DNA of 64,000 nt. Source: Clostridiales bacterium. GTDB taxonomy: Bacteria; Bacillota; Clostridia; Lachnospirales; WQUN01. This document shows, one piece after another, positions 1-4,679 of the stretch. Below the pieces are notes generated by a model. That model worked only from the letters and a program-made list of their open reading frames with translations. It ran no database searches and was not told the DNA's origin. A program made the position numbers and the translations under genes. Position 1 is the first letter of the stretch, and each line of letters opens with the position of its first letter. The DNA lies in the NCBI GenBank assembly GCA_031263155.1, contig JAISGK010000031.1, forward strand, positions 1 through 64,000, given 5' to 3'.

Positions 1-44
1 GCTAAACTTGATATTGATCTGCAAATCTTAGCAAGGAGGATGTT

Positions 45-3000
45 ATGAAGTACAAAGCATTAATACGGCGCGTGGTGGCTTTTCTACTCGCCGCTTTTTT
101 TGTGTTCTCAACTCCGGGGGGGGGGGGTGACGGTATATGCGGCAGACATTGATAATGCCAAAAGCAAGTTAACAGCTTACTTAAGCAACAACCCAATAAC
201 CGCTGACACTGATTGGAATGGGTTTTATAAATGCTTACTAAGTGAAGGGGATAACGATGGCCATTTAGACGAGCTTATTACGGCGCTTAAAGGGGTAGCA
301 ACTCTACCAGCAACTTGGAATGGAATGGAAAATAAATACTTTACACTAATTGGTGCAAAAGTAAAATTGGAAAACTTCATTAACGAGAGTGTGCCAGTAG
401 GGTTTCAAAATATTTTGGAAATTCTGATCAAAGAGCTAACGCCTGAATTTGAACCAGATGATGATAATATAGGCGAAATGTTCATAGATTGGCTCGAATT
501 TGGGGACAACTCCGTGAAGGCTAATAACATCTTACCAAAGTTGGCCTTTCTCGATTTTCTCTTGATAGATTCTTATTATTATGGAACTTCGGATGGGGCG
601 GGCAAGGAAAGTCAGTGGAATATTATTGAATTAGGTACGGAAGCAGGAAAGGTCGATTTAAACAAGATATTCGCTCTGGTTTCTTCACTTTCTGGCACTA
701 CGGGGCTGAAAGACATAGAGCTGGATAAGCTATCGCCAGCGTTAGAAGAAATAACCAAATTAATTGAAAAGTTGGAAGATCGCGCAAATAAAATGGATGC
801 TCTTGGAGAGGCTACCAATTCTGCTCTCCTTAAAGCAGCCCTTGCAGGGACGGGCGCGGATCCTGATAGCTACTTTGATCTTGACCCTTTCGTCCTCACA
901 TTTGGCGCGAAGATATTAGATGGTGACACAGGTACTACATTTTCAGACCTGGCGAAAACTATGCTCGCAAACGGTATGGGAGTAAAAGATATTAGCGACG
1001 TTGTGACTAGCTTGGCAGACAGTGGCATGGCGGGAAGCATTAGCGACCTACAAAGTCTCGCAGCAAGCTATGGCTTGGCAACAGAAGATGCTATCACAAT
1101 TTTTGGCCTATTGAGTAAAGCTGGAATTGATCCAAGTGAATTGCTTCGTCTTCTTAACGGCACAGCAACATGGGCCCAAATAAAAGGCGTTTTGAGTTCA
1201 TTAGGAATTGCTAGCACAACGTTGGATGCGTTGCCATCAAGGTTGAAAAGTTACTTTAACAACGCCATCACCGCGCTTCAAAAATACTCTACAGCCCTCG
1301 AAGCTGGAGATGTTGATGTAAATTACATATTAACTGAAAGCGCATACGTAATCGCGGGCATAGAAAGCTTCACGCTTTACGTGTATGATATGCTTCCCCA
1401 GGAGTTAAAGACTGCGGATAAGGTTAGCAAGGAAGATATAGAAAACTTCTTCGATGATCTGCTGCCCGCGATAAAAGCGGAAATTAAAGAACAACTGGAG
1501 CCGTGGCGGACTGTACCTCCACGTACCAGAGAAGAATCTTACCTGTACAACAACAGTACAGACCCAACCGTAGGTGAAGATGGGCGCGTTAACGCGATAG
1601 ACATCGAAACCGTTTGGGACAACTTGGGTGGTTCACTTGAAGGTGTGGTTAATGGTAAATTGAATGACTTCTTTGGAAGCACACATAGCACCATTAAAGC
1701 CACGCTACAAGCAATTTTTGGCGCAACCTTTGATTTCATCTTTGGCCTTACCACCACTGACATTGAAGAGTTTGATATTGCGAAATTTGTAGGCAAATAC
1801 CTTGATGATTATGCTGAAGCCGATGTTAGTAACCTCGCCATAGGCGTAAACAACCGTACTAACCAAATATGGGCTGCGGCTACAGAGGGCAACAGCAATC
1901 TGACCAAAGATTTTGTAACAAGCCAGCTTGTTATGCTTATTACTGGCATAGATGCGCTTGGCATTGACGAAAATTTAGCAAAAGTAATTGCTGGCGCTGT
2001 GATCGACGAAAGAGACCCTAATAACATTCTAACGCCTCTTGGCGATCAAATCGTAGCCGCTGTGTATAAGTTTTTGGCGAAGCAAGTTTTTGATGAATTA
2101 GGTACAAATAAGGAAGCCCTAATAAATAACGCAACTGCCCTGAAAAACAGCCTCGCCTATATTGCCAACTACGCTGAAGATAAGCGCAATGTGGAAATAG
2201 AAATATCAGGTGACAAAGAAAAAGAAGTATACATAATTGGCACAGACGAATTGAGCAACAACTATGACACATTCCTTTATAAGACCGTCGATGGCAATGC
2301 TGGCTATTACTCTGCCCTGAATAAACTCGGATTTACATTTAGCTATGAGTTGCTTAAATACGGCAGCACAACCTACACGCCGGACACGAAGTTCAAAATA
2401 GACGCCACAGTTGGTAACGACATAGAGTTTAAGAGTACGAGCGACACAAGCATTTATTATGAGGGCGGCGCTGGAGACAATGCACCGTATGAGGTTACGG
2501 TTGCGGCTTACGCCACTCTGACGTATAACAGATATACATGGAAGTTCCTTTTTGCCACAAAGGATATTAAGATAGTTAACGCAGGGACAGTGACGATTAA
2601 ATATGAGTCTAACTACACGGGCGGCCCTGATGCCGTTACAGACACTAGCGTCATTGGGAGCAATTATGTGATATGGGATAGTACAAACGCCAAATTGAAT
2701 TTTACCCGTGCTGGTTATACCTTCCAGGGCTGGAGCACAACCCTCGGAGCTACCGTAGCGGACTCCGCTTACGCCGCTGGCGCGACTTACAACGGCACGG
2801 AACCTTTAACGCTTTACGCTATATGGAAAGAGAATGAAGGCTCCCCGGTCGTGGCTAATTACCAAATCACATTCGACCCCAACGGCGGCAGCGTATCCCC
2901 AACAACCTTGCGGACCGGCGCGGATGGCAAGCTCGCAACATTGCCCGTACCCGCAGCAAGGAGCGGTTACAACTTTGTCGGCTGGTTTACGGCAGTAAGT

Positions 3001-3804
3001 GGCGGCACACAGATCACGGTGGATCACGTGTTCACCGCAGACACCACGCTTTACGCCATATGGAGCGCAAAGTCTTCAACCGGAATTACTCTTCCAAGCA
3101 CCACGCGCCCGACAATCACTATAGAGCCTCCCACAGTCACAGTAACCGCGACGCCAACGCCTATTCGCGTTTATGAAGTAACAACCGATAGCGAAATAAG
3201 CATTGCGGCGCCGCAAATAGCGGATCAACTCTATGAACTTAAGCTGTTCTACGGAGTAGGGACTGATTCCAACGGCAAACCCATATATGCCCTGGACTCT
3301 GCCCTAAACCGTTTGGAAGCGCTTACACTGGTTATACGCCTGTTGGGATTGGAACAAAGCGCGTTGGCCTATACGGGCGCTAATCCATTTGGCGACGTGC
3401 CGCAGTGGGGCGATCGCATAGTGGCTTACGCTTACGCGCAAGGCATAACCGTTGGCGTTAGCGACACAAAATTTGACCCCGCCAGCCTTGTTACCCAACA
3501 GCAGTTTAGCGCGTTTTTGCTTCGTGTGCTGGGCTACTATGAAAAATACGGAGATTTTGAGTACAGAGACGCGGTGAGCAAAGCCGTCGCGGTAGATTTG
3601 TTTACGCAAAGCGAGGCGAATTTGTTTGCGAGCAAAGAATACTACCTGCGAGCATATGCTGTTATCAACATGTGCGATGAATTACAAACCGCGCTTAAAG
3701 GCTCCAGAACATTGCTTATAGATAATCTGGTTGCGCAGGGTGTGTTGACTCGCGCACAGGCGGATAACTTCCTGCAAGCCATCGCGAAAATATACTATAG
3801 ATAA
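45..3804 (+). CDS. SLH/InlB-repeat surface protein, out of frame at a G12 tract
   Basis: A large secreted cell-surface protein. An ATG at 45 follows a strong Shine-Dalgarno (33-40, AAGGAGGA) and encodes a signal peptide (MKYKALIRR, then a hydrophobic core). With the 12 G present at 116-127 this frame stops after 35 codons. The mature protein is open in another frame from about 100 (only a TTG start there) to 3804. With 11 or 14 G the two join as one protein of about 1252 residues with a plausible cleavage after VYA. Visible parts, numbered on the joined protein: a long low-similarity region of about 850 residues; two Listeria-Bacteroides (InlB B) repeats at about 862-930 and 940-1007, each ending LYAIW; a Thr/Pro linker; and a C-terminal SLH region at about 1083-1220 that should bind secondary cell-wall polymer. 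I recognise no catalytic domain. It may be phase variable, a pseudogene or an assembly error. The surface role is secure, the reading-frame state is not. Confidence 0.8.
116..127 (+). repeat. poly-G tract (12 G) in the signal-peptide coding region
   Basis: Twelve consecutive G lie between the signal peptide core and the predicted cleavage site of the surface protein. The count decides the frame: 11 or 14 join signal peptide and mature protein, 12 or 13 do not. I noticed no other homopolymer like this within a gene here. Such tracts are classic slipped-strand phase-variation sites, and also common sequencing errors. Confidence 0.9.
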
Positions 3805-4277
3805 TAAGAGATAATAAGCGATCGTTGACGTCGTAGGGGCGCGCGACCAGATTGCGCAAAAAATCGTAGTCTGAAGGGGGAGGTAGATGGGGGATTAATT
3901 CGTCTACCGACCCCAAAACAAGTTTCCTTTGGATTTCTGGTTGTACGCTGGTTATTCTTACTATCTGGCTTATAGTATACAATTTTTTAGGGTTAATGTG
4001 GATCTTTGTTAATTTATATTATAATCTAGCTAAGTGGATTTTTTGCGCAGCGCAGTCTGAATGCCGCCCCCCTACGCGGGATTTATCCGTCTCAGCCCAC
4101 GTAAAAGCGATCGTCTCGCCAATTTTGCGGATTGTTTTCTATATATTCGGCGATGCAGTCGTAATCACGTTCGTTCCGGATGATGTGATCGTGGAACGAG
4201 CGCTGCCAAAGAGAAAAACCAACGTCCTTGTTTGTGAACCGTTTCAATGTTGAAACGAGCGCCGGTATAACCGCATT

Positions 4278-4305
4278 CGTAGGGGACGGCGTCCTCGACG
4301 TCCCG
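4278..4305. repeat. REP-like palindrome copy inside the RAYT 3' half
   Basis: CGTAGGGGACGGCGTCCTCG followed by ACGTCCCG. It resembles the other GTAGGGG repeats but in opposite orientation to the two 49-bp copies, and lies within the transposase reading frame. Confidence 0.5.
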
Positions 4306-4473
4306 TTTCCCAGCCCCGACATTCCACGGTTCCCGTTTGATGCCTTGTCACCCTCGTTGTCGGAAACCAAAATAATCATGTGTATGTGATTTGGCATAAT
4401 CACATAATGCGGTATCTAAATGTTCTCGTAATTACGGCACATATCGATTATTCTTTTTGCTACGACATCGCTG

Positions 4474-4522
4474 TGTGGCGTCAATTTGCAATGCGGGGCG
4501 TCGAGGACGCCGCCCCCTACGA
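4474..4522. repeat. 49-bp direct repeat, copy 1 (inside RAYT)
   Basis: Differs from copy 2 at 4680-4728 by one base. It contains the perfect hairpin GGCGTC-GAG-GACGCC followed by GCCCCCTACGA, the REP-like core. This copy lies within the coding sequence of the transposase N-terminal half. Confidence 0.85.
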
Positions 4523-4679
4523 GAGGGGCGCGAATTCGATGCCCCAACAATTCGGCGTGGTCTTTTACGCATAATGTTATGAAATATGCTCCGTTACGGC
4601 TGTAATCATAACCTTTCAACCGGGTTTGTTTTCTCTGAGGCAATTCCTTCACGTTTCACCTCTTGCCATGACGTTACGG

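Follow-up and report, generated by a model that had tools for sequence, protein, structure and literature searches.

Phase variation through simple repeats is best known in pathogens, for example Neisseria and Campylobacter. In Neisseria pilC, which encodes a surface adhesin, a poly-G run in the part coding for the signal peptide gives on/off frameshifts; Campylobacter and its relatives carry many poly-G/C contingency loci in the glycosyl- and methyltransferase genes of a single genome. In Neisseria opa, CTCTT repeats are located in the leader peptide, and slipped-strand changes in repeat number shift the reading frame (PMC3960869). B. breve UCC2003 has G-tract switches in its sortase-pilus genes bbr_0113 and bbr_1889, for which slippage was measured by deep sequencing; there are one or two tracts per genome, located in pilus clusters. 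The same study points out that annotated G-tract lengths may be wrong; G tracts are a known problem in sequencing (PMC9187656).

The locus described here lies at the start of the window, a 64 kb stretch of Clostridiales DNA. It resembles the B. breve switches in its setting, a Gram-positive gut commensal, and in its layout: a short upstream ORF with a Sec signal is followed by a G tract and by a wall-anchored protein in a second frame. In both cases the reference genome is at an out-of-frame length, and the second ORF has neither a Shine-Dalgarno sequence nor a signal of its own. The B. breve genes differ in their LPXTG/sortase anchor and pilin cargo, while the window locus encodes an SLH protein; they are also confined to one or two tracts in pilus clusters, whereas the window genome has about 16, mostly in glycan genes. 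Slippage was measured in B. breve, while the window locus is known from its sequence. By analogy, the window locus would work like a B. breve-type pilus G-tract switch, but it is not a member of that group. As in opa, the repeat is placed within the stretch that encodes a surface protein's signal peptide; opa, in contrast to the poly-G of the window, has a pentamer repeat and encodes a Gram-negative outer-membrane protein. The likeness to the B. breve switches implies no homology, and as far as tested the window locus is homologous to neither these nor opa. PilC differs as a Gram-negative pilus-tip protein, and the Campylobacter-type loci differ in that the genome of the window tracts encodes SLH surface proteins and has MutS. 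Literature searches turned up no report of SLH proteins that phase-vary through poly-G; this is a weak negative, as literature coverage was partial.

The G tract is probably a replication-slippage phase-variation switch of an SLH surface protein, and one of a genome-wide poly-G set. Base 1 of the window is also base 1 of its contig (contig 96 of 110 in a genome of 2.75 Mb, 92% complete); the tract is thus 115 bases from the contig end, and the promoter is missing from the assembly. The features of the locus are collected in the table below.

Features of the poly-G locus and the encoded protein, in window coordinates
Feature	Position	Strand	Basis and remarks
Shine-Dalgarno AAGGAGGA	33..40	+	read directly in sequence; strong; 4 nt before ATG at 45
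Signal-peptide ORF, 12 G state	45..152	+	ORF list; 35 codons then stop
G12 tract	116..127	+	signal-peptide c-region, Pro-Gly-Gly-Gly-Val codons; proposed slippage switch
Mature surface-protein frame	127..3804	+	1225 codons, no internal stop; with 12 G not in the frame of the ATG
Two Listeria-Bacteroides repeats (Flg_new, TIGR02543)	2704..3057	+	Pfam PF09479 E 2.4e-20; NCBIfam TIGR02543
C-terminal SLH region	3205..3801	+	Pfam SLH match at 3385-3507; family profile against PDB

The product of the signal-peptide ORF is MKYKALIRRVVAFLLAAFFVFSTPGGGGDGICGRH (35 aa). The downstream 1225-codon frame, counted from base 127, has its stop at 3802-3804; its sole upstream start is a TTG at 100, which has no Shine-Dalgarno sequence. 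When the tract length is changed in silico, 8, 11 or 14 G join the two frames into a protein of 1251-1253 aa (...STPGGGVTVYAAD...); 9, 12 or 15 G lead to a stop at 34-36 aa, and 10 or 13 G to a stop at 27-28 aa. The N-terminus that results from 11 G is MKYKALIRRVVAFLLAAFFVFSTPGGGVTVYAAD and looks like any ordinary signal peptide. Judged by eye on this reading and on a paralog described below, the export signal has a Lys/Arg-rich n-region, a hydrophobic core and a V-Y-A or A-Y-A cleavage motif. The tract is the sole G or C run longer than 6 within the 64 kb window. Its codons (CCG GGG GGG GGG G) form a pure run; given the codon usage of the window, a pure 11-run in Pro-Gly-Gly-Gly-Val would arise through synonymous choice with p ~0.002.

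This layout of export signal, tract and out-of-frame mature SLH protein was proposed in a first-pass annotation, and the coordinates, ORFs and length simulation bear it out. The ORF at 45-152 confirms the statement that the 12 G frame ends after 35 codons. The simulation also agrees that 11 or 14 G join both frames, adding 8 as a further joining length, and the 11-base register matches that of the in-frame paralog.

The encoded protein has an SLH domain and is presumably located at the surface. The Pfam SLH model scores 23.9 bits on the C-terminal part alone and 20.7 on the whole protein (cut-off 20.8). Against the PDB, a profile built from 13 relatives reaches a best E of 4.5e-10, its matches being SLH structures of Sap, SbsB and a surface-layer glycoprotein; this upholds the SLH identity first assigned from the sequence. 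The C-terminal region thus matches the SLH repeats of Sap- and SbsB-type surface-layer proteins (PDB 3pyw, 4aq1, 6cwc); this likeness covers the SLH domain only, and the rest of the protein has no PDB sequence match. Nothing known matches the first 800 residues, and no sequence match was found in the PDB for the N-terminal 858 residues. AlphaFold models made without alignments had pLDDT below 40 for both protein parts and were not used. An LPXTG-type end is absent: the SLH C-terminus ends in KIYYR, and Pfam finds Flg_new and SLH only. An SLH protein would be expected to bind a pyruvylated cell-wall polymer; a polysaccharide pyruvyl transferase-like gene is present in the genome (contig C12) and itself carries a G19 tract. 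Downstream of the SLH gene, two adjoining ORFs in different frames (4092-4652, strand -) contain an MPNHIH motif and by eye resemble a broken REP-associated transposase; GTAGGGG-type palindromic repeats are seen nearby.

The genome contains one paralog, on contig C19 (G000:C19:10719-14189, strand -), and these two are the only such copies. The paralog shares the upstream motif and the signal peptide (MKHKVFAKRVIAFLLAALFVFATPGGGVTAYAA) with the window gene and is in frame. Its Pro-Gly-Gly-Gly-Val is encoded by CCA GGG GGA GGG GTA, so that 11 bases, interrupted by A, stand opposite the 12 G of the window; this register is the reason for taking 11 as the joining length. The mature frame is 61% identical to the paralog over 1095 aligned residues, and dN/dS (NG86) is 0.57 overall and 0.24 across the C-terminal 240 codons. 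Since there is no stop in 1225 codons and dN/dS has these values, the window gene appears intact, at least partly constrained and not plainly decaying. The first-pass annotation had held that homologs lacking a G tract at this place would speak against a switch. This applies in part: C19, the sole close homolog, has a tract here, in an interrupted and non-slippery version.

Searches beyond the genome gave little. No convincing orthologue of the N-terminal 81 residues of the paralog was found in other species, and no alleles of the window gene were found from another strain. A search for related loci returned only distant MAG matches (Oscillospiraceae, Clostridia) to the repeat/SLH region, and these, with the SLH proteins, are the grounds for regarding the bacterium as probably Clostridia-like; matches in phage records were limited to the repeat region, and a scan of viral contigs for other tract lengths of the window allele found nothing.

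The window tract belongs to a larger set. There are 20 G/C runs of at least 11 in the genome, four of them where contigs C63 and C65 end in poly-G. Poly-G at contig ends, here and in many cases in relatives, was set aside as a possible artefact. The remaining 16 runs, of 11-21 bases, are flanked on both sides by unique sequence; about 0.01 would be expected genome-wide when the decay of short runs is extrapolated to runs of at least 11. Two of the 16 (the window's own and one on C12, 21 long) lie within ~115 bases of a contig end. Run lengths are bimodal: a tract-enriched 215 kb holds 25 runs of 6 or 7 and five of 8-10, followed by the 11-21 cluster. Only one A/T run of at least 11 is found in the genome. 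Missing mismatch repair was considered as a cause of the long tracts and rejected, since MutS is present. The base before the tract (read as G) is C in 15 of the 16, the exception being C98:4614 with T; for certain other genera, a preceding A or T is just as frequent. Of the poly-G ends of C63 and C65, one is at an FkbM gene and the other in a secreted protein; they may be a sequencing artefact, or genuine long tracts at which the assembly broke off.

Thirteen of the 16 tracts have a long coding stretch on either side, which they join in frame in 3 cases and out of frame in 10; if lengths drift, about two-thirds should be off, and the count comes close to this. According to Pfam, the tract genes function mainly in surface-glycan synthesis, and include DUF2304 beside GT2, polysaccharide pyruvyl transferase, AlgX/DHHW, epimerases and methyltransferases; an FkbM methyltransferase is split inside its domain. 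One glycan cluster (C106:1-17998) has three tracts (G13, G13, C11) in 6.3 kb, located at an epimerase/epimerase junction, in the split FkbM methyltransferase and at a transketolase beside an acetaldehyde-dehydrogenase-like gene. On C12, an AlgX/DHHW-like protein has G15 right after its N-terminal membrane anchor, a design as in the window tract; the pyruvyl transferase-like gene with G19 is nearby. Outside the surface theme, a C11 tract (C98:4614-4624) separates a DUF3987 gene from the primase-like part upstream of it. Some tracts are at gene junctions or ends, where the effect may be fusion or coupling instead of on/off.

Runs of at least 11 are also frequent in relatives: there are 120 in 25 genomes of the same family, many at contig ends, compared with 9 in 16 genomes from other families of the order. 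In 60 stretches taken from relatives, a distance of at least 150 bases from the stretch end is kept by 36 tracts. These include tracts located within or next to the signal peptide of a large secreted protein, in four relatives (G003, G007, G023, G002). G003, which belongs to another genus, has two near-identical copies of promoter, Shine-Dalgarno sequence and signal peptide; the tract has the same position in both, but one copy has 11 G and is in frame, the other 15 G and is out of frame. As the difference is four, too large for a plus-or-minus-one error, it is hard to explain by miscounting. This pair concerns another signal-peptide tract, the window gene itself being known from one genome. 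Together with the genome-wide G/C tracts at frame breaks, it supports the slipped-strand phase variation put forward initially. Another locus of G003 (L178:592-602) has an in-frame G11 shortly after the signal peptide of a secreted protein in which an SLH-like stretch is seen by eye. It is slightly more likely than not that this uncultured, apparently Clostridia-like family runs a genome-wide poly-G repertoire, in which slippage switches wall-glycan enzymes and SLH proteins and the G run is repeatedly placed in the signal peptides of large surface proteins, in several genera.

The proposed mechanism starts from what was observed, namely the anatomy of the locus, its frames, the tract enrichment, the register of the paralog and, in a relative, two copies whose tracts differ in length. 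Ribosomes would initiate on the ATG at 45 and translate the export signal. With 11 G (or 8 or 14), reading would continue into the SLH protein of ~1.2k residues; the full-length protein would be exported, and its C-terminal SLH region would hold it on the cell wall. At other tract lengths, translation would stop after 27-36 codons and nothing would reach the surface. A G gained or lost in replication would flip the state, and the change should be heritable and reversible. Given a sufficient slippage rate, cells would switch back and forth between export and non-export of the SLH protein, and a population would be expected to contain a mixture of both, presumably to its benefit. The assembly length of 12 corresponds to OFF, if the count is right. 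Because the window tract is one of ~16, mostly in cell-surface glycan genes, the set could give combinatorial variation of the coat.

The state of the switch (12 or 11 G) is less certain than the mechanism, because the contig end is near, there is one genome per species and annotated G-tract lengths may be wrong (PMC9187656). If the assembly has miscounted, the cells have 11 G, the gene is simply on and the consensus contains one G too many. Short-read consensus is unreliable at long G runs, contigs C63 and C65 end in poly-G, the window tract is itself near a contig end, and annotated tract lengths in B. breve differed from deep sequencing (PMC9187656). A miscount would, however, need to account for 10 of 13 coding tracts being out of frame, for lengths of up to 21 and for 11 versus 15 G in the two near-identical G003 copies, and is considered unlikely. 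Since a pure G11 would itself be slippery, a miscount would change the state (from OFF to ON) more than the mechanism.

Two further explanations were considered. The frame may be fixed OFF in a decaying pseudogene, the job being done by the C19 paralog, which is intact and 61% identical; an overall dN/dS of 0.57 indicates only moderate constraint. This is very unlikely in view of the lack of any further frameshift or stop in 1225 codons, a C-terminal dN/dS of 0.24, the retention of a good Shine-Dalgarno sequence and signal peptide, and a sole lesion at a hypermutable run that resembles 15 others in the genome. Alternatively, the change of frame could occur in RNA. Long homopolymers can cause transcriptional slippage, and if the G run made either RNA polymerase or the ribosome slip, some full-length protein would be made while the DNA is unchanged; such recoding would serve an in-frame downstream ORF that has no start of its own. 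It leaves unexplained the differing DNA tract lengths in the near-identical G003 copies, the 11-21 spread and the interrupted, in-frame tract of the C19 paralog. As an explanation it is very unlikely, but it may coexist with DNA slippage. Replication slippage at the DNA level is the preferred reading of the window tract.

A switch of this kind is already known; what is newer is how large the repertoire of this lineage is. If the reading is correct, simple-repeat phase variation is at work on the coat of an uncultured lineage too, with ~16 loci per genome, and gene predictions in the lineage would wrongly call such surface genes broken. For this set of loci, tract lengths in metagenome reads could show if switching of the coat is under selection in the host or habitat.
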